From IMG/VR virus record IMGVR_UViG_3300025128_000157, positions 1 to 35,382 of that record: a stretch of 35,382 nucleotides of DNA, one strand, 5' to 3'. Below, piece after piece: positions 874 through 14,852 of this stretch; position 1 is the first letter of the stretch; every line of letters starts with the position of its first letter. Position numbers and translations under genes: made by a program. The notes beneath the pieces are model-generated. The model searched no databases. It saw nothing but the letters and a program-made list of their open reading frames with translations, and was not told the origin of the DNA. Source of the DNA: a virus.

Positions 874-903
874 ATAATATAGGAGATTAATATTAAAAGT
901 CAA
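874..903 (-). promoter_or_regulatory. Sigma70-like promoter for the leftward gene set at 849
   Basis: On the minus strand there is TTGACT (898-903), a 16-nt spacer ending in CC, then TATATT (876-881). An 18-nt spacing to TATTAT (874-879) is also possible. Transcription would begin around 867, giving a short leader with the ribosome binding site for the gene at 849. The -35 box overlaps the start codon of the plus-strand gene at 903, so the two directions should interfere. The CC-TATAT end matches the promoters at 1844 and 13375. Confidence 0.6.
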
Positions 904-1139: not shown

Positions 1140-1208
1140 TTATGGCTCAATCTTCTCACCACAATTAAACCTATCCATCTTACTCTCTCTTTGGATAGGT
1201 GTATTCAT
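1140..1208 (-). CDS. Possible 22-residue peptide gene, coupled to the frame at 1205-1285
   Basis: The ATG at 1208 shares the ATGA junction with the stop of the preceding small frame. It has an AGGG ribosome binding site 6 nt upstream (1215-1218). The peptide ends MDRFNCGEKIEP and is charged and soluble-looking. The ribosome binding site lies in the 3' arm of an 8-bp hairpin, so translation would depend on ribosomes arriving from the frame above. The same bases are also the end of a longer open frame from about 1370. Which of the overlapping frames is used is not certain. Confidence 0.35.
   Translation of the reverse strand: MNTPIQRESKMDRFNCGEKIEP
1170..1199. other. 7-bp inverted repeat (CCTATCC ... 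GGATAGG)
   Basis: CCTATCC (1170-1176) and GGATAGG (1193-1199) are perfect complements separated by 16 nt. The repeat lies between the converging plus-strand gene (ends 1121) and the minus-strand genes, inside the tiny frame 1140-1208. It could be part of a transcript-end structure or of a larger structured RNA; no U-tract follows it directly in either direction. Confidence 0.35.
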
Positions 1209-1285
1209 ACTAAACCCTGTAATTTCCGTGCACGTACTTTTACAGGGCCAAAGGCTCCACACCTCCACCGGACTTGCGGTTTCAT
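1205..1285 (-). CDS. Possible 26-residue basic peptide gene
   Basis: From ATG 1285 the frame reads MKPQVRWRCGAFGPVKVRAR and ends in LQGLV, closing at an ATGA overlap with the next tiny frame. It is strongly basic, with Trp and Cys. Its composition looks more protein-like than the competing Ser/Thr-rich frame over the same bases. No ribosome binding site is seen before the ATG. The DNA here is much richer in G+C than the neighbours. The call depends on the ATGA coupling and amino-acid character only. Confidence 0.3.
   Translation of the reverse strand: MKPQVRWRCGAFGPVKVRARKLQGLV
1215..1247 (-). promoter_or_regulatory. Hairpin sequestering a ribosome binding site
   Basis: In the minus-strand RNA, CCCUGUAA (1247-1240) pairs perfectly over 8 bp with UUACAGGG (1222-1215), leaving a 17-nt loop. 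The loop contains the palindrome CGTGCACG. The AGGG of the 3' arm is the apparent ribosome binding site of the tiny gene starting at 1208. Folding would hide that site until a ribosome translates the overlapping upstream frame through the stem. Confidence 0.5.
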
Positions 1286-1350
1286 AGGTTGCCGTACAGA
1301 GGCTAGCGCGTAGCATTACTTGGACGGAGGTCCTTTTCATCATCAAAATT

Positions 1351-5774: not shown

Positions 5775-5939
5775 TTACGCTACCTGTCTACAAGAAGGAC
5801 AAGTTTTTTTTACTCCATCTGGGTGTTTTTCACAAACTATCCTTATTTCTTTTTTTGGTAAATCTTCATAAAATTCTATATGTTCATCTTTGCATTTACA
5901 AAACTTACCAAAAATTTTTTCAATTAATTTTTTAATCAT
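5775..5939 (-). CDS. Small Cys-containing protein
   Basis: From ATG 5939 (AGGA about 9 nt upstream) this is a 54-residue protein: MIKKLIEKIFGKFCKCKDEH, then a C-terminal CEKHPDGVKKTCPSC. Two Cys pairs plus a His could bind zinc. The amphipathic N-terminus could lie on a membrane. The frame is open to 5960, but that start lies in the preceding gene and lacks a good ribosome binding site. Confidence 0.6.
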   Translation of the reverse strand: MIKKLIEKIFGKFCKCKDEHIEFYEDLPKKEIRIVCEKHPDGVKKTCPSCRQVA

Positions 5940-6582
5940 GTTTTTTTTCCTCAATCTCATAGAAGAACTTATCCGTATCTTCTGTTTTCCATTGACCCGT
6001 ATCTTCTACGTTCCATTCGTTGGTTTGTACCTTCCAATCAGGAATATTATCTTTTACCGTAAAAGAAGGTAAGTCCCATATACATCTATTATTAGGTTGT
6101 GCTGCAAAATTGCCGTTATCTAACGCAATTATGTGAGCGCACTTATGTTCGTGCGGTACTTCAGAATGTTCCGTATCTAGTATATTACTCTCTGGATGTG
6201 CAAAGTCAACGGTAAATAAATATTTACCTTCGTGCCATTTTTTATCTTTACCTATATATTTTCCGTGTTGACCACTTAAAATATCATAAGTAGTAACAGC
6301 AGGATAATAACTAAAAGAATTCCAAAGCTCCAGTTCATCAAGTCTTTTGGAGGGAACAGACTTGGGTTCATAACCACGTTGAATAAAAGCCGTAATTGGG
6401 AGACGATAAAAGATTGCACCGTTTTCCATAATAGCATGCCATAAGATAGCGCGACCTGAAATACAGCTAAGACCAAAGATAATACAGTCTTCAACTTCTC
6501 CATGATGTTTTTGTAAGTCATATAAATATTCTCTCCTTATTTGTGCGTATTGTACAGGAATATTTGCATTTAAGTAAGCCAT
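5932..6582 (-). CDS. Conserved marine phage hypothetical protein (DUF-like)
   Basis: A 216-residue soluble protein with conserved-looking blocks: MAYLNANIPVQYAQIRREYL, an aromatic and acidic core (ENGAIFYRLPITAF), then HKCAHIIALDNGNFAAQPNN and a Trp-rich C-terminus. I recall homologues in cyanophages and pelagiphages, always uncharacterised. It follows the DNA polymerase by 9 nt, with GAGG before its ATG, and probably closes the replication operon. No catalytic motif is clear. Confidence 0.75.
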   Translation of the reverse strand: MAYLNANIPVQYAQIRREYLYDLQKHHGEVEDCIIFGLSCISGRAILWHAIMENGAIFYRLPITAFIQRGYEPKSVPSKRLDELELWNSFSYYPAVTTYDILSGQHGKYIGKDKKWHEGKYLFTVDFAHPESNILDTEHSEVPHEHKCAHIIALDNGNFAAQPNNRCIWDLPSFTVKDNIPDWKVQTNEWNVEDTGQWKTEDTDKFFYEIEEKKHD

Positions 6583-6591
6583 AAATTAACC

Positions 6592-8442
6592 TCATTTTAT
6601 TGTACCCCAATTTGGTCCAGATTCATAGTCTACTTTGTTAGGTACTTCAAGGTTGACTGCCTCTTCCATAATGGTTTTTATTTTTTCTGCATGCACAGAA
6701 TCTTTAACTGATATATCAAGTTCATCGTGCACTTGTATATGTGGTATTATACCTTCTTTGTATAATTCTAACATAGCTTTCTTTGTCATGTCCGCAGCAC
6801 TACCTTGTATAAGTTTATTTAATGCTTTGTATGTGTATGCACGTTTGATCCCTGGTCCGTGTTCCATGAGCGCTGCATCATGTGGTAATGCTTTATGTAT
6901 ACCAAACTGATTAGGTTCCCATAAATGGAATCTACATAGTCGACCTAGTAAAGTTCTTACTCGACCAGAGTTTTGTGCACGTTGCATAACATTATCCATC
7001 AATTGTTTTACAAATGGAACTCTGTTGTGATATTGTTTAAACAAACTATCGGCTTTGTCTTTAGACACACCTAACTCTGCTTGTAATTTATTTTTACCCA
7101 TACCATAAAACAAACCAAGATTTATAGTCTTAGCTTGTGATCTAGGTATTTCTGCCATGTCAGCAACAATATCATGAAAGTCTGCATCACCATCGTTGTA
7201 TGCATCTAAAACATCGCCAACACCATATAAATTCTGTAAAGCAGCATAATGCACTACCAACCTAGGTTCTTGCTGTGAATAGTCAAAACAACCCCATGTA
7301 TGGCCCTCCTCGGGTATAAATAATGACCTAATCCGTGGTCCAAGGTCTTTGTTTCTAGCAGGAATTTGCTGTAAATTAGGATTAGAATAACTAAACCTAC
7401 CAGTCACAGTTCCGCCATTATCTGAACGCAATTGATTTATCTCTGCATGAATTCTACCTTTATGTGAATGTTTTAATATGGTATCAATAAACGTGGTATG
7501 GGCTTTGTTTATTTCACGGGCCTGGGCAATTAGTTTCACCAGTGGGTGGGGGTGATTCTGTAAAAAATTTTTAGTAAAGGAAGGTGCTTGTGTTTTTTCA
7601 GTTCTATCGTAATCTAGTTTTAGTTTATCAAAAACTTGTGCAATACTTCTTGCAGCCCATATTTGAGTGTCTATGTTGGTTTCTTTTTTTACTTTTTGGA
7701 TTAACATGGCTTCTTGTTGCGCTAACTCTTGCTTCATTGTATGAGCTTTTTGAACGTCCACTCGAACCCCACGAAATCGCATGGCCACCAGACAAGGAAA
7801 AAGTTCCGTTTCCAGATCAAAAATAGATTGTATATCTTGGTAAAGTATTTCTTTTTTAAGTTCTTGCCATAACTCTAAAGTTATCTCTGCATCTTTTTCT
7901 GCGTATGCACCGACATAAATGGCAGGTAGTTTATACATTTCTGCCTTGGCGTCAACCCCCCAATCTTTTGCAGCTTGATATAAATCACTTTCATTTTTAG
8001 TTTTGCCAGTGTATCTTTTAGAACAGTTGTTTAAGTCATAGCGCATTTGATTTTCATCAACAAGGGCCGATGCTATCATCGTGTCTACAATTTTACCGCT
8101 GACACTTAAACCGAGCGCTTGTATCCAGCAGACGTCATACATTGCGTTGTGAAATATTTTATCTGCAGGTGTATCTAATACACCTTGAAACCATGTTAAA
8201 ACTTTTTTACGATCCATGTTGCCACCACCTTCGTGAGCAATAGGATAATAACCTGACCAGCCTGGTACAGCTACAGCTATTCCTGTAACATCACCCTTAT
8301 TAACTACAGATCCTGACCCCATTTTTATTAGGTCTGGGTCTTTAGTTTCTAAGTCAATTGCAATTTCATCATACTTAGAAAGGTCTGGAAAATTTTCAGG
8401 TGGTAACCATTCTGTTTGTGGTTTAAATAGAGGTGTCTGCAT
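6592..8442 (-). CDS. polA: Family A DNA polymerase with 3'-5' exonuclease
   Basis: The replicative polymerase of the phage, 616 residues from ATG 8442, where AAAGGG lies 7 nt upstream; the frame is open to 8457. The 3'-5' exonuclease motifs are present: DLETK (30-34), HNAMYD (98-103) and YAEKDAEIT (180-188). The polymerase core has motif A FDYSQQEPRL (386-395), motif B RSQAKTINLGLFYGMG (434-449) and motif C QVHDE (570-574). Length and layout match T7-like and marine podovirus polymerases. It lacks the 5' nuclease domain of bacterial Pol I. It overlaps the end of the DUF3310 gene by 20 nt. Confidence 0.97.
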   Translation of the reverse strand: MQTPLFKPQTEWLPPENFPDLSKYDEIAIDLETKDPDLIKMGSGSVVNKGDVTGIAVAVPGWSGYYPIAHEGGGNMDRKKVLTWFQGVLDTPADKIFHNAMYDVCWIQALGLSVSGKIVDTMIASALVDENQMRYDLNNCSKRYTGKTKNESDLYQAAKDWGVDAKAEMYKLPAIYVGAYAEKDAEITLELWQELKKEILYQDIQSIFDLETELFPCLVAMRFRGVRVDVQKAHTMKQELAQQEAMLIQKVKKETNIDTQIWAARSIAQVFDKLKLDYDRTEKTQAPSFTKNFLQNHPHPLVKLIAQAREINKAHTTFIDTILKHSHKGRIHAEINQLRSDNGGTVTGRFSYSNPNLQQIPARNKDLGPRIRSLFIPEEGHTWGCFDYSQQEPRLVVHYAALQNLYGVGDVLDAYNDGDADFHDIVADMAEIPRSQAKTINLGLFYGMGKNKLQAELGVSKDKADSLFKQYHNRVPFVKQLMDNVMQRAQNSGRVRTLLGRLCRFHLWEPNQFGIHKALPHDAALMEHGPGIKRAYTYKALNKLIQGSAADMTKKAMLELYKEGIIPHIQVHDELDISVKDSVHAEKIKTIMEEAVNLEVPNKVDYESGPNWGTIK

Positions 8443-8677
8443 CGTAATCCCTTTCAAGTATCATTTCTAAATAATGTATAGCTTTTTCAATGTCTTGCTT
8501 CTTTCCTTTTACAGAATGCCTGCATATATATTTTATAGCATTGCCCTCTGCAAAAAGCAACTTGTTCTCGTTTATAAACTCTGCAGGTTGGATTTTCATG
8601 TTGCGATAATGTTTACCGCCGATTTGGTCTTCTAAAGAATTGTATGTTGTTCCTTTAAATAAATCTTTATGTGTCAT
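8423..8677 (-). CDS. DUF3310 protein
   Basis: This 84-residue protein shows the DUF3310 pattern: DQIGGKHYRNMKIQPAEFIN followed by NAIKYICRHSVKGKKQDIEK and AIHYLEM. The family is common in phages and is sometimes annotated as a nucleotide kinase-like protein, but no enzymatic role is established. It lies between helicase and polymerase genes, overlapping both, so a replication or nucleotide-related function is plausible. Confidence 0.88.
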   Translation of the reverse strand: MTHKDLFKGTTYNSLEDQIGGKHYRNMKIQPAEFINENKLLFAEGNAIKYICRHSVKGKKQDIEKAIHYLEMILERDYDADTSI

Positions 8678-10164
8678 AGTAAATATCCCTTCTCATATTT
8701 TTTTGGTTCTATTATGTGTAAGTTTTCTTTTGTTCTTGTTGCACCAACATAAAACAATCTGTTTTCATCGTCTGGATCTCTTTCGTAACCTTTCATAGTA
8801 TTTTGTGTTAGATCTGTTAACAACACAACGTTTTGTGATTCACCACCTTTAGCACCATGTATAGTAGATAACTCTATTCTTGGTTTTTCATTTAGTCTTT
8901 CTCCATTTGCTCTCATCTTTCTTAAATAATCTACTTTAGTTTGTCCAGCATCATCAAATGCTTCAAACCAAACTGTTTTAATCTGTAAACCATAATCTTT
9001 TGTAAGTTGATCTATTGTATAAAAAGATTCTTTTGCCATACCTTTAATTTTTTTCTTGTGCCAATGTTTTGGACTCATGTATTTAGATATATTTTCTATT
9101 TGTTTGTAAGATAGTGGTTGTCCTTTTAATCCACCTTCCCATGCTGTTGCTGCTTCGTGTAAATCTTTTTCTGTGCCTCTTCTGTATTTAGATGAATAAT
9201 ACAAACCACGTTGATACAAAGATTCTTCTACATCTTTTAATAAATGTTTAGTTCTAGCTAATACTAACCACTCACCTGATGACATATCAATTGTATCTGC
9301 ATTGTAATGTCTTTGTAAGCTGCCTTGATTTATTTTTGGTTGCCATGTTTTATCTATTCTGTTTCTAATTCTATTAATAATACCCATTGCTAATCCATGC
9401 ACTTTTGCTGGTATTCTAAATGATTGTGTTAGTGGTAGGTATTGTCCTTTTAAAGCTATAAAAGAATCTACATCTGCACCAGCCCATTTGTATATTGCTT
9501 GATCATCATCACCTGCAATAAAAGAATCCTGTGTTTTATTCCAAATAGTTTTTGCCATGTCCCATTGCATTAGTGACAAATCCTGTGCTTCATCAATAAA
9601 CACTACATCAAATTTTGGAGACTTATCTAATTTTGTAAACTCTGTAATCATGTCATTAAAATCTATTAAGTCGTATTCTTTTTTGTATCTGGTTAATTCA
9701 TTGTGAATAATTTTAAGTGTGCTTCTTTCTAAATCTTGTGTGTGTTCGTGTAAATCAAACTGTTGTTCTGGTGTAATGTTTCTAAGTTGTGCTAGTTGTA
9801 TAATTCTTAAATACTCACTATCAGAGTTAAATGCACTTCCTTGATCTTCTTGGTAGTCTGCATAAGTTACAGGAAAACCTAATTTTTTTCCTAAATCTTT
9901 GTAATGTCTTTGTTGCATAACCTGATCTTTTTTTATTCCAAGTCTTCTAAATGCTAGTGAGTGTAATGTTCTAAAATATGGTAAATCATCTTCTGTAAGA
10001 TTAAATTTTTTTATTGCTCTATCTCTTGCTTCGTATGCAGCTTTCTGCGTAAATGCAAAATATCCAACTTTATCAGGATCTGTATTTTTTAAATAATCAT
10101 CTACTTTGTTTAACAACGTTGTAGTTTTACCTGTGCCTGGTGGTCCTAATACTATCGTTCTCAT
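8674..10164 (-). CDS. UvrD/Rep-like superfamily 1 DNA helicase
   Basis: The 496-residue protein has all main SF1A motifs. Walker A is GPPGTGKTTT (7-16), motif II VVFIDEAQD (187-195), motif III AGDDDQAIYKWAGAD (217-231), then a QSFR motif (247-250), STIHGAKGGE (433-442) and FYVGATRTKE (471-480). It should unwind duplex DNA 3' to 5' at the expense of ATP. It is shorter than UvrD itself, as expected for a phage version. Coupling to the primase upstream (1-nt overlap) suggests it is the replicative or fork helicase. Confidence 0.93.
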   Translation of the reverse strand: MRTIVLGPPGTGKTTTLLNKVDDYLKNTDPDKVGYFAFTQKAAYEARDRAIKKFNLTEDDLPYFRTLHSLAFRRLGIKKDQVMQQRHYKDLGKKLGFPVTYADYQEDQGSAFNSDSEYLRIIQLAQLRNITPEQQFDLHEHTQDLERSTLKIIHNELTRYKKEYDLIDFNDMITEFTKLDKSPKFDVVFIDEAQDLSLMQWDMAKTIWNKTQDSFIAGDDDQAIYKWAGADVDSFIALKGQYLPLTQSFRIPAKVHGLAMGIINRIRNRIDKTWQPKINQGSLQRHYNADTIDMSSGEWLVLARTKHLLKDVEESLYQRGLYYSSKYRRGTEKDLHEAATAWEGGLKGQPLSYKQIENISKYMSPKHWHKKKIKGMAKESFYTIDQLTKDYGLQIKTVWFEAFDDAGQTKVDYLRKMRANGERLNEKPRIELSTIHGAKGGESQNVVLLTDLTQNTMKGYERDPDDENRLFYVGATRTKENLHIIEPKKYEKGYLL

Positions 10165-11651
10165 TAATATGGATCTTTTGGTTTTAATTCTTTTTGTGTA
10201 TAATCATCTGTTTTTTTATCAAATTGTTTTACAACAAATACAGATATTCTTTCTTTACTAATTCTTTTGTCATCACAGTTGCATGTTTCTTTTAACATCT
10301 GCGCTGTACGTGAGTATGGTACATCCCAACGTTTTCTAATTAAAAATTGATTGTAAAACTTATCAAATATAAAATGATGATAACCTTCTTTTGTTAAGAC
10401 ACCACCACGTTTTAAATCTTTTATGTCTGATCCTATGTGTCTATCTAAACAAAATTCTTCTAAGTGGTTTTGTAATTGATCCTGTGTAGTCACACCTTCT
10501 GGTGGATCTATTGGTTCGTGATTCTTCATCAGTGGATTTATTATCATATCCCAGTCTTTTGGTTTTACTGTTGGTGGTTTAAAATCTAACTGTTCCATAC
10601 ACGCCTCTTGAAATAAACTTTGTTGTTTTAAAAATTTTACATTTTCTAAATGTAATCGTTCACCATCTACGTTTAAATAATAATATGGTTTTTCTAATTT
10701 AATTTTTTGTAAATCAGTTAGCGCAGGAAATACTATCTCTTCACCAATACCAAACTTTCTTTCTCTACATAGTTTTTTATCACAAAGATTACACATAGGT
10801 GTGTCATTACACTTGTAACCCCATTCTTTTTTATCATGTTGACGTTTAATTATTTCTACTTCAGACTCGCTTAGTGGTGTTGTTGATGCAGTTGCATTAA
10901 ACAAAGTCATTTTACTTTTCCATTCTGCAGGCCATTTCTTTTTAGCATACACACCAAAATGAAACATAGAATTGTTACGTCCACCTTCTGGTATTTTATT
11001 CATAGCCATAAGTTCTATACACGGTGGTGCATCAGAATATTCTGATTGTGGTCTTTCTATTTTTATTTTTGTAATGTCTTTTTGTTTTACTGTATTATAT
11101 ATTGTGTAAAATTCTTCTAATGTTGCAGCATTACCATCTTCTTTAAATGCATATCGTGTTGTGTTATTACCATTAAAGTATGGTAAGTTTAAAAAATTAC
11201 CCGTATCATCTGATGATTTTAATTGTATTTGTTTTGGAAAAACTTCTGATCCGCCATATCCTAATAATGTTTTTATTTCCGTTAGTTTATCTCTCATTCT
11301 TTCTGCAGCTACGGGTAGTTCCGAAAAGAGAAAGACGTGTGCTCCCCCACTCTTTGACCTACACACAGCCAAAGGCAATTTAAATTGTTTTATTTTATCT
11401 ATAAGTTGTTTGTGATCAAACCCTGCGTAAGAATCTATATCCACACAACCCCATATACATTGATTATCTTCGTTAATTGGTATAATACCCAAACTTTGTG
11501 TACCATTTAAATGCATAGTCCACAGGTCCGTGGTCACTGGTTGACGTACAACAAATGATTGACCTTTTAATTTGACACCATTCTCAGCTGGTGTACTTAC
11601 TTTAGTACAACCATGAGCTCGTTCCAATCCCTTAAATATTTTTTCAAACAT
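10164..11651 (-). CDS. Archaeo-eukaryotic-type primase (TOTE/AEP-like)
   Basis: The 495-residue protein has an N-terminal AEP-type primase domain: CVDIDSY (69-75) carries the two metal-binding Asp, and CRSKSGGAHVFLF (97-109) carries the sxH motif. EVFPKQ follows at 136-141. PEGGRNNSMFHFGVYAKK (221-238) resembles the PriCT domain, and a Cys cluster (281, 287, 290, 295) may bind zinc or FeS. The C-terminal third may form a winged-helix part. It would synthesise primers for the family A polymerase. The ATG at 11651 has no clear ribosome binding site and lies 9 nt after a hairpin. Confidence 0.82.
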   Translation of the reverse strand: MFEKIFKGLERAHGCTKVSTPAENGVKLKGQSFVVRQPVTTDLWTMHLNGTQSLGIIPINEDNQCIWGCVDIDSYAGFDHKQLIDKIKQFKLPLAVCRSKSGGAHVFLFSELPVAAERMRDKLTEIKTLLGYGGSEVFPKQIQLKSSDDTGNFLNLPYFNGNNTTRYAFKEDGNAATLEEFYTIYNTVKQKDITKIKIERPQSEYSDAPPCIELMAMNKIPEGGRNNSMFHFGVYAKKKWPAEWKSKMTLFNATASTTPLSESEVEIIKRQHDKKEWGYKCNDTPMCNLCDKKLCRERKFGIGEEIVFPALTDLQKIKLEKPYYYLNVDGERLHLENVKFLKQQSLFQEACMEQLDFKPPTVKPKDWDMIINPLMKNHEPIDPPEGVTTQDQLQNHLEEFCLDRHIGSDIKDLKRGGVLTKEGYHHFIFDKFYNQFLIRKRWDVPYSRTAQMLKETCNCDDKRISKERISVFVVKQFDKKTDDYTQKELKPKDPY

Positions 11652-11660
11652 ATTTTTTAA

Positions 11661-11690
11661 TGGGCGCTTCCACTCTCGCTTTCACGCCCA
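11661..11690. promoter_or_regulatory. 6-bp hairpin before the primase start
   Basis: TGGGCG (11661-11666) and CGCCCA (11685-11690) are perfect complements with an 18-nt loop, in the 54-nt gap between the candidate ssDNA-binding gene and the primase. The local DNA is G+C-rich. In the minus-strand RNA the stem ends 9 nt before the primase ATG, which lacks its own ribosome binding site. It may regulate translation or protect an mRNA end. There is no U-tract for a standard terminator. Confidence 0.45.
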
Positions 11691-11705
11691 CTCCTAGGAT
11701 TTTAT

Positions 11706-12464
11706 TTAGTATGGTGAATCTGTTTTTGATTCGTCTGATCCGTGTTTAACTTGCACATCACCTTTACCAACTTGTTCAGCAAAAGATTTTGCAATTCCAT
11801 AAACACCTTGATCTTCAACCGGACCAACTTTAGACACTTCCCAACCAAACCATGTTCCTTTGTCATTTGACATTTGAACAGTTTTTAGATTGTAAATATG
11901 GCTATATGTTGGCGGTGTAAACAAACCAGTTTTACCTTGCAATTTAATTCCCATCATAATGGAATTCCATTTACGACTAATTTTTAGTTGAGTCGCTTTC
12001 ATAGAAATTAAAGCAGTTTGTGGTGAATCACCTAACACAACTACATAGTGATTTGCAGTGTTGTCAATGTAATTACCATTTGGCAATCTATCTTTGTAAG
12101 ATTTATCACGAGTTGTTTGACTCATAATATCAGAACTAGCATCGTGAATTGCAACGGGTGCACCAGTGCCAGCTCCTCTGTCTTGCCATTCTATTAATTT
12201 TCTTTCATAGAATACTGGCAGTACATTTATTCCCTTACTTCCATCATAAAGTTCATTTGTGACACTGTTAATAATCATACCTGGTTCGGCATCCTTAACA
12301 TATCTTGCGTGTACTTTATTTACTTCAGGAGATAGTTGTCCTAATACTTTCAGAAATGGTAGTGCAAGATCTTCTTGCGTCATGTTCTGAGAGCCTTTAT
12401 CTGCATCAGCTTCAAACATATTGACTGCTAATGCACCTTCTTCTTTTTTTACTACTTGGTTCAT
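11706..12464 (-). CDS. Candidate ssDNA-binding or replication-associated protein
   Basis: A 252-residue protein lacking a recognisable enzyme motif. It has a leading acidic stretch, conserved-looking blocks (LALPFLKVLGQLSPEVNK; GINVLPVFYERKLIEWQDRG) and a polar C-terminus. Its place between a coiled-coil replication-operon gene and the primase suggests a single-strand-binding protein with a role like that of T7 gp2.5. That call is from position and composition, not from a motif. AAGGAA lies upstream of the ATG. Confidence 0.5.
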   Translation of the reverse strand: MNQVVKKEEGALAVNMFEADADKGSQNMTQEDLALPFLKVLGQLSPEVNKVHARYVKDAEPGMIINSVTNELYDGSKGINVLPVFYERKLIEWQDRGAGTGAPVAIHDASSDIMSQTTRDKSYKDRLPNGNYIDNTANHYVVVLGDSPQTALISMKATQLKISRKWNSIMMGIKLQGKTGLFTPPTYSHIYNLKTVQMSNDKGTWFGWEVSKVGPVEDQGVYGIAKSFAEQVGKGDVQVKHGSDESKTDSPY

Positions 12465-12466
12465 GT

Positions 12467-13018
12467 TTATTGTTTCCTTTTTATTGTTGTTTTATTTCCA
12501 ACGAATACGTTGAAAAGTTCCGTTGGCATTTCTTTACCTGCCTCAATACGTTCACGGACTAACGCTTTGAGAGTCATAGGTTCAACCTTTAATTTTTGTT
12601 GAGGTTGATATCCATGACTCTCTGCAAGGTTGGCATAATCAGCCGCCTTGTTATCCTCGTTACGACCAAAAGATACGGATATCTCATTTTTGATTATATC
12701 TCCTAGTCCATTATTACGAAGCCATCCAAACGCTGCCTCTCTATTTGCAATAGTGATGCTTGCGCTGTAATTTGGTTTTACATCTACAGAAGATCCATCC
12801 ATAAGTTTAAGATGTGATAAACCCATCTCAGACATCATAGTTGGAATTACTTCTCCAGATATATTATCAATTTGTTTTTTTGTATTTTTTATATTTTCCT
12901 CTTGTAGTTCAAGTCTTTTATTTAGATCTTCTAATTTTTCTACTTGGTCTGCAAGTGATTGTATATTGGTTGTTTTTTGCAAAACATTTTCTTGGTCTTT
13001 TTCAAAATCAATTTTCAT
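12467..13018 (-). CDS. Conserved coiled-coil phage protein
   Basis: The start at 13018 is supported by AAGGAG at a 6-nt distance; the frame is open to 13105. The 183-residue protein has an N-terminal coiled coil and then a compact domain containing MSEMGLSHLKLMDGSSVDVK and GWLRNNGLGDIIKNE, followed by SVSFGRNEDNKA. I remember this domain as a frequent replication-region protein in phages, without an established role. It overlaps the gene at 13367 by 11 nt. Confidence 0.65.
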   Translation of the reverse strand: MKIDFEKDQENVLQKTTNIQSLADQVEKLEDLNKRLELQEENIKNTKKQIDNISGEVIPTMMSEMGLSHLKLMDGSSVDVKPNYSASITIANREAAFGWLRNNGLGDIIKNEISVSFGRNEDNKAADYANLAESHGYQPQQKLKVEPMTLKALVRERIEAGKEMPTELFNVFVGNKTTIKRKQ

Positions 13019-13367
13019 TAATTTCTCCTTTCTCGTATAGATTAATTTCAATAGGATAATATGCTCTTTCTTGTTTGTCCCATTTAAGTAAATTGTATTT
13101 ACCATTTGTCATGTCAGAAACTATTGAACATGCAACACCTATAATAGCAGGATCACCAGTCAATAATAAATAATCTTCTGTCGTAAAATCTTTTAATGCT
13201 TTTCGTAATTTAAAAATTAACGGACCAGGAGAAAATATTATTTGTGAAAATTCTGGTAGTAAAAATTCAAACTTACCATATTTTGCAGCACCCATAATAT
13301 TAATTTTTGGTGCGCCTGATTGAGTTCCAGCAACTTCTTGAATTACATAAACTTTATTTTCTTTCAT
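13008..13367 (-). CDS. Conserved hypothetical protein, first gene of the replication operon
   Basis: The ATG at 13367 gives 119 residues (MKENKVYVIQEVAGTQSGAP ...), with a core of FLLPEFSQIIFSPGPLIFKL and LLLTGDPAIIGVACSIVSDM. An upstream TTG in the same frame is less likely. There is no ribosome binding site: the -10 box ends 7 nt before the ATG, predicting a leaderless message. I recall homologues in other marine phage replication modules. Its role is unknown, but its place as first early gene suggests regulation or replication initiation. Confidence 0.65.
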   Translation of the reverse strand: MKENKVYVIQEVAGTQSGAPKINIMGAAKYGKFEFLLPEFSQIIFSPGPLIFKLRKALKDFTTEDYLLLTGDPAIIGVACSIVSDMTNGKYNLLKWDKQERAYYPIEINLYEKGEINEN

Positions 13368-13369
13368 GC

Positions 13370-13398
13370 TTGACAATATAGGTCCTGTCTATTATATT
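13370..13398 (+). promoter_or_regulatory. Rightward half of a palindromic two-way promoter
   Basis: On the plus strand TTGACA (13370-13375), 17 nt, TATATT (13393-13398). It drives the SNF2-like helicase at 13422. The predicted leader is about 17 nt with a purine-rich AGAAAGAAGAAAA segment. Both promoters occupy the same bases, so only one polymerase can bind at a time. The symmetry could also serve a dimeric repressor. Confidence 0.75.
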
Positions 13399-13403
13399 GT
13401 CAA
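13370..13403 (-). promoter_or_regulatory. Leftward half of a palindromic two-way promoter
   Basis: On the minus strand TTGACA (13398-13403), 17 nt, TATATT (13375-13380). The two arms TTGACAATATA and TATATTGTCAA are exact reverse complements of 11 bp with 12 bp between them. The predicted start site falls at or next to the ATG at 13367, so the replication operon would begin with a leaderless gene. Confidence 0.75.
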
Positions 13404-13421
13404 CTAGAAAGAAGAAAAACT

Positions 13422-14852
13422 ATGAACTATAAATTTAAAACAAAGCCATACAAGCATCAAATGACTGCTTTAGAAAAGTCATGGAACAAAGAAACTTATG
13501 CGTATTTTATGGAAATGGGTACGGGTAAAACAAAAGTATTAATAGATAATATGTCCATGCTTTACGATAAAGGTAAAGTAGATGGCGCATTAATTGTAGC
13601 ACCTAAAGGTGTTGTTGGTACTTGGTATAGCAACGAATTACCTACACATTTACCAAGTCATATAGAAAATGTGACTGTATTGTGGCAGCCAAATATAAAC
13701 AAAAAACAACAACAAAAACTAGAAACTTTGTTTGAAGTAGAAACAGCTTTACATATTTTAATTATGAATGTTGAAGCTTTTAGCACAGAAAAAGGTAAAA
13801 AATTTGCAGAAAAATTTTTACGATCACACAATACATTAATGGCCATTGACGAGTCTACTACAATAAAAAATCCTAGTGCTAAACGTACAAAAAATATTGT
13901 GGCTTTAGCAAAACAAGCTAAATACAGACGTATTATGACAGGTTCTCCTGTTACCAAAAATCCATTAGATTTGTATAGTCAATGTGAGTTTTTAGATTCT
14001 TATCTTTTAGATTTTTCTTCTTATTATGCATTTAGAAATAGGTATGCAGAAATGAAAACTATGCATGCACATGGTAGGTCTATACAAGTGGTAGATAAGT
14101 TTAGACATTTAGATGAATTGTCTGACACTCTTAAAAATTTTTCTTATCGTGTATTAAAAGAAGACTGTTTAGATTTACCAGACAAAATATTTATTAAACG
14201 TCAAATACAGTTAACACCTGATCAATTTAAATTGTATGAACAAATGAAAAAACAAGCTTTAGCAATACTACAAGGTAAAGTATCTAGTACAAAAAATTCA
14301 TTAACTCAATTAATGAGATTACAACAAATAACTTGTGGTCATTTTACAGATGATAATGGCACTACACAAGCTATTAAAAACAACAGAGTTGACGAACTAA
14401 TGAATGCGTTAGAAGAAATTGAAGGTAAAGCTATTATTTGGGCCCATTATCAATATGATATTAATAAAATTATAGAGGCTATTAATAATGAATATGGTCC
14501 AGGATCTTTTGTTGACTATTATGGACTTACACCAAAAGAAGACAGACAAAACAATATTAAGCGTTTTCAAGAGGACCCTAAGTGTCGATTTTTTATTGGA
14601 ACGCCCTCTACGGGCGGCTATGGCATAACTTTGACGGCTGCAAACACCGTAATTTACTATTCTAATGGATATGACCTAGAAAAACGTTTACAATCAGAAG
14701 ATAGAGCACATCGTGTTGGACAAAAAAAACCTGTAACTTATGTAGATATAAATGCTGAAGACACTGTTGATGAAAAAATAGTTAAAGCATTAAGAAAAAA
14801 AATAAATATAGCTTCTGAAGTATTGGGCGAACAACTTAAATCATGGATTTAG
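13422..14852 (+). CDS. SNF2-like superfamily 2 helicase/translocase
   Basis: The 476-residue protein has the SF2/SNF2 core: Q-like region KPYKHQMTALE, Walker A MGTGKTK (32-38), motif II DEST (143-146), TGSP (173-176), GTPSTGGYGITLTAA (393-407) and QSEDRAHRVGQ (424-434). The DEST and RAHRxGQ forms are typical of SNF2-family dsDNA translocases rather than DEAD-box RNA helicases. It could clear proteins from DNA or help in recombination or replication. It is one of two plus-strand genes and converges on the endolysin gene with a 30-nt gap. Confidence 0.9.
   Translation: MNYKFKTKPYKHQMTALEKSWNKETYAYFMEMGTGKTKVLIDNMSMLYDKGKVDGALIVAPKGVVGTWYSNELPTHLPSHIENVTVLWQPNINKKQQQKLETLFEVETALHILIMNVEAFSTEKGKKFAEKFLRSHNTLMAIDESTTIKNPSAKRTKNIVALAKQAKYRRIMTGSPVTKNPLDLYSQCEFLDSYLLDFSSYYAFRNRYAEMKTMHAHGRSIQVVDKFRHLDELSDTLKNFSYRVLKEDCLDLPDKIFIKRQIQLTPDQFKLYEQMKKQALAILQGKVSSTKNSLTQLMRLQQITCGHFTDDNGTTQAIKNNRVDELMNALEEIEGKAIIWAHYQYDINKIIEAINNEYGPGSFVDYYGLTPKEDRQNNIKRFQEDPKCRFFIGTPSTGGYGITLTAANTVIYYSNGYDLEKRLQSEDRAHRVGQKKPVTYVDINAEDTVDEKIVKALRKKINIASEVLGEQLKSWI

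Follow-up and report, generated by a model that had tools for sequence, protein, structure and literature searches.

The 34-base inverted repeat at positions 13370-13403 of the viral DNA analysed here (IMG/VR record IMGVR_UViG_3300025128_000157, 35,382 nucleotides, referred to as the window) is very probably a pair of divergent promoters of the type TTGAC-N17-YTATAT, which overlap one another and would serve the housekeeping RNA polymerase of the host. The element reads TTGACAATATA-GGTCCTGTCTAT-TATATTGTCAA. Its arms, TTGACAATATA at 13370-13380 and TATATTGTCAA at 13393-13403, are 100% complementary and lie 12 nt apart, exactly the sequence and coordinates of the perfect 11-bp repeat described in a first-pass annotation of the window. 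That annotation also placed a consensus -35, a 17-bp spacer and a TATATT -10 on each strand, and both sets are where it put them. The rightward promoter (+ strand) has the -35 TTGACA at 13370-13375 and, 17 nt from it, the -10 TATATT at 13393-13398 (TTATAT at 13392-13397 in the alphaproteobacterial register). The leftward promoter (- strand) has TTGACA at 13398-13403 and, again at 17 nt, TATATT at 13375-13380 (CTATAT at 13381-13376 in the same register). The rightward -35 extends over the final base of the leftward -10 and over the leftward discriminator, while the leftward -35 lies within the region predicted to melt in the rightward open complex. The perfect symmetry would then arise because each -10 abuts and slightly overlaps the opposite -35. 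From this geometry we expect rightward transcripts to start at 13403-13406, 5-8 nt past the -10, and leftward transcripts at 13367-13369, with no leader or one of 1-2 nt.

An 11-bp repeat taken alone is unremarkable and means little, because dinucleotide shuffling of the AT-rich window produces a perfect inverted repeat of 11 bp, with a gap of at most 30, in 44% of cases. An interlocked pair in which both promoters score at least 11/12 occurred in 0/300 shuffles, and one in which both score at least 10/12 in 6%. Both promoters of the element score 11/12, the top score among the promoter-like sites listed in a 20-kb scan, where a third site, inside coding sequence, ties with them. The element is present as a single copy in the record. 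Both strands fit the alphaproteobacterial consensus exactly, as TTGAC-N17-TTATAT on the + strand and TTGAC-N17-CTATAT on the - strand. The sequence features of overlapping divergent sigma70-type promoters are present: a spacing of 16-18 bp on each strand, overlapping cores and divergent genes on both sides.

To the right lies the only obvious rightward gene of the window, encoding an SNF2-type DNA helicase (13422-14852, + strand; Pfam PF00176 and PF00271, PHROG 62). Its leader (13405-13421, + strand) contains a ribosome-binding-site-like sequence, AGAAAGAAG, that is conserved among relatives. To the left, on the - strand, the first gene is Pam3 gp32-like (13008-13367; Pfam PF23992, with profile position 1 at residue 4) and is followed by the rest of a replication operon (6592-13105) with Pam3 gp33-like, Pam3 gp34-like, primase, UvrD-type helicase, DUF3310 and DNA polymerase A genes. 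The leftward ATG (13367-13365) begins just 7 nt beyond the leftward -10, and the mRNA of the replication operon should therefore be leaderless or nearly so, which on this spacing we consider probable. In the window's clade the leftward start codon is mostly 7-9 nt beyond its -10, and in those members whose arms span 37 nt it runs into the -35 of the promoter facing the other way. Two further leftward promoters of the same consensus without a palindrome, TTGAC-N17-CTATAT at 1844-1872 and TTGAC-N16-CTATAT at 876-903 (both - strand), serve as controls. Rfam gave no match anywhere in the window. The stretch at 1150-1350 (- strand), which is GC-richer and by eye resembles a structured RNA, had no Rfam match and folds no better than its shuffles (z -0.86). 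The region 5932-6582 (- strand) matches PHROG 3704, labelled ferredoxin, and the gene at the same place in the phages HTVC027P and 023Pt_psg01 is annotated PurM.

Relatives were gathered by helicase homology and not by motif, and 158 distinct upstream regions were aligned. The best characterised are HTVC027P, a phage of the marine bacterium Pelagibacter, and phage 023Pt_psg01, with helicase identities of 61-64%, and we infer Pelagibacter as the host of the window. The GenBank records of both phages begin with the start codon that opens the replication operon, and the gap is easily overlooked because the record ends cut through it. In the two clades nearest the window, its own and that of 023Pt_psg01, 111 of the 112 distinct relatives that could be read retain both arms, counts that are not independent, given shared descent. 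The first-pass reading of two overlapping divergent sigma70-type promoters is borne out here, as is its expectation that the arms are conserved together. Of the 113 regions from these clades, 108 carry the two arms within the gap, and in three more the arms sit behind a small gene that has been inserted; the remaining two are one split pair (L020 and its identical copies) and one cut-off contig. Three phages of the 023Pt_psg01 clade considered as arm losses were rejected as such, the element being intact beside the inserted gene. In these three (L172, L213 and L225) the small gene lies between the promoter pair and the helicase and now heads the rightward unit. Several relatives have exchanged the gene on the replication side for another and retained the promoter. 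The element is absent from HTVC023P and the freshwater phage DSL-LC04, which are more distant helicase relatives with the divergent layout, and the gene order differs in Xanthomonas phage Carpasina, Pseudomonas phage LKO4 and Podoviridae ct3Et533. The gap before the helicase of HTVC023P (L435/L439) has no interlocked promoter, but it does have an AT-rich inverted repeat, ATTATTTATTT / AAATAAATAAT.

The distance between the arms varies among the relatives. Measured from TTGAC to GTCAA it falls into length classes of 33, 34 and 37 nt, and on the helicase tree the class has changed at least 17 times. We scored YTATAT at every spacer length, per class and strand: the best rightward -10 is at N17 in all length classes, and the best leftward -10 is at N17 in the 33 and 34 classes and at N16 in the 37 class. 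In these alignments the arms have shifted relative to each other and each -35 is still in register with its own -10. A varying arm distance with a steady -35/-10 spacing is what two promoters predict, and it is not what a fixed dimer operator predicts; the constant half-site spacing expected of an operator was not found. The comparison demonstrates, at the level of aligned sequences, that selection maintains both -35/-10 pairs at promoter spacing. Within the 33 and 34 classes, none of the 11 rightward TATATT boxes has an extended -10 TG, a feature that only one of the 17 weaker TANNTT boxes at this register lacks. All four independent tree pairs agree with this trade-off, although the 4-6 independent events are too few for significance (sign test p 0.125).

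We propose that the host housekeeping polymerase (sigma70-type) reads both promoters; HTVC027P has no RNA polymerase gene and reportedly depends on the polymerase of its host (PMC12753301). Rightward initiation would yield the transcript of the SNF2-type helicase and leftward initiation that of the replication operon, an mRNA that probably lacks a leader. Polymerase bound in one direction would be expected to block the other, because the sites coincide and one open complex would melt the -35 of the other. Steric exclusion has been reported at bidirectional promoters, and in E. coli it matters only with strong promoters (PMC12825309). Competition between the two directions is plausible here because both promoters are near consensus. 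By default the pair probably serves to express both units compactly and in a set ratio, with no dedicated regulator, rather than acting as a bistable switch. The first-pass annotation had spoken of a switch, a label for which we see no support, as no regulator gene was recognised among the window proteins scanned and the element shows no sign of operator symmetry in its interior.

It is quite possible that both promoters are real and that their overlap reflects mere compaction, with initiation too infrequent for polymerases to compete. This would be a sub-case of the interlocked promoter pair and is not exclusive of it. The gaps in these phages are short, and the bidirectional promoters tested in E. 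coli fire too rarely to interfere (PMC12825309). Those examples are weak, however, whereas the hexamers here are near consensus both ways (11/12), and the pair is still interlocked after all the changes in length class, though L020 demonstrates that splitting is possible. We only tentatively suggest that the interlock has been selected for its exclusivity, so that one unit is transcribed per genome copy at a time, setting the ratio or order of helicase and replication operon expression early in infection without a regulator.

Natural variants bear on the further possibility that the element works as a promoter in the rightward direction alone, its leftward half being a by-product of symmetry or shared descent. 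In the HTVC027P clade the leftward -35, and with it the right arm, is lost and the rightward promoter is kept, and in the 023Pt_psg01 clade the leftward -10 is less constant; both observations point to the rightward promoter. Against this, no part of the element is as constant in the window's own clade as the leftward -10 (TATATT in 33/40), from which the leftward ATG maintains its distance. Moreover, where phages have lost the right arm or split the pair, a leftward promoter is seen at a site of its own. The promoters of L020-L022 stand apart, back to back, and the far arm is gone from each. No leftward TTGAC promoter was found in the gap in any of the 65 HTVC027P-clade regions tested, and 31 of the 65 have a perfect leftward TTGAC-N16-YTATAT promoter directly after the first leftward gene, about 400 nt downstream; the equivalent position has such a promoter in only 3/50 and 2/55 of the other clades. 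A strict-consensus leftward promoter further down is absent from about half of the HTVC027P clade. On these grounds a rightward-only function is very improbable. Relatives in which only one arm is conserved were what the first-pass annotation had named as counting against its reading, and the HTVC027P clade is such a case; yet the promoter of the retained arm is kept and about half of the clade has a leftward promoter elsewhere, so that the pattern fits the promoter pair. The -10s of the two strands overlap in the HTVC027P-clade gap in 29 of 34 cases. One locus placed in this clade by best match (L160) has both arms.

A strict scan of viral contigs, with gaps of 8-16 allowed, returned among readable loci only gaps of 12 (76) and 11 (4), practically all upstream of this SNF2-type helicase. 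Under relaxed criteria, 84,980 bacterial genomes yielded 62 stretches with the -35/-10 interlock, so these phages are not alone in having this geometry. The gap is 12 in 49 of the 62, where equal thirds would be expected for gaps of 11-13 (p about 2e-13), and 30 of the stretches sit between divergent genes. Among the few neighbours checked, three are TetR-type regulators and one is another helix-turn-helix protein. The bacterial cases (L367-L428) come from Paenibacillus, Lachnospiraceae, Treponema and others, and several have a TetR-type neighbour and an inner palindrome.

Such neighbours, and the extra inner symmetry that sometimes goes with them, recall another reading, in which the palindrome is the operator of a dimeric repressor or activator controlling nearby divergent promoters and the promoter-like hexamers are incidental. 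The outer arms, which are perfectly dyad-symmetric, would suit it, and the first-pass annotation had suggested that a dimeric repressor could bind the symmetrical DNA. This suggestion is not upheld by the relatives, in which the half-site spacing shifts by up to 4 bp and the promoter spacing is kept. The 12-nt central segment (13381-13392) varies among relatives, is without dyad symmetry and gives no sign of an operator; interior dyad identity in the phages is 0.28, the chance level, versus 0.44 in the bacterial matches. L020 and the HTVC027P clade have lost the symmetry and retained the promoters. Searches with Pfam and PHROGs recognised no DNA-binding regulator among the window proteins scanned, several of which have no family and which come from a record that is itself a fragment. 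We consider an operator very unlikely. That the repeat is instead a recombination core site, a replication origin box or an RNA hairpin, as inverted arms with a short spacer next to a replication operon might suggest, is extremely improbable, as the centre and the arm spacing vary, and the single-copy element follows promoter spacing and, lying upstream of both predicted starts, should not appear in a transcript as a hairpin. These grounds led us to reject an operator, a recombination site and an origin alike.

Tn10 tet and ant/mnt of phage P22 are examples of divergent promoters that overlap and have a regulator between them. The interlocked pair resembles such TetR-type divergent pairs in that divergent promoters occupy the same bases and would be sterically exclusive; it differs in that no regulator gene was recognised among the window proteins scanned and the phage elements showed no operator symmetry in their interior. 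In the literature searched we found no phage precedent with the exact geometry, P22 ant/mnt included. As a sequence type, the two halves belong with the sigma70 promoters of alphaproteobacteria, for which CTTGAC-N17-CTATAT is the consensus in Sinorhizobium meliloti (PMC2873474), and both fit TTGAC-N17-YTATAT exactly. Ordinary promoters of this type, including the two others in the window, are one-way and non-palindromic, unlike the phage element.

The closest known systems are the bidirectional promoters described by Warman, Forrest, Wade, Grainger et al., which share a -10 and have starts mostly 18 bp apart, with 10 and 23 also common; the five tested in E. coli have low basal activity (PMC12825309; PMC10268837). 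The likeness is that of a short, near-symmetrical element at which polymerase binds in either orientation, one at a time, and gives divergent RNAs, although the exclusion is for the phage element predicted from its geometry. The arrangement differs. The -10s of the phage element are 12 bp apart and unshared, each overlaps the -35 of the other, the hexamers are near consensus both ways and the predicted starts are about 35-39 bp apart instead of the 10, 18 or 23 bp of shared or reciprocal -10s. It is the HTVC027P clade that resembles the shared -10 type of E. coli (PMC10268837). Bidirectional promoters have recently been recognised as common, and those tested in E. coli are too weak for polymerases to compete. 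The phage family described here is natural and deeply sampled, near consensus in both directions and fully interlocked, and its split, shared -10 and relocated variants are built-in natural controls. With it one can test directly when competition between polymerases governs gene expression, and it offers strong promoter candidates in a group akin to the cultured phages of Pelagibacter.
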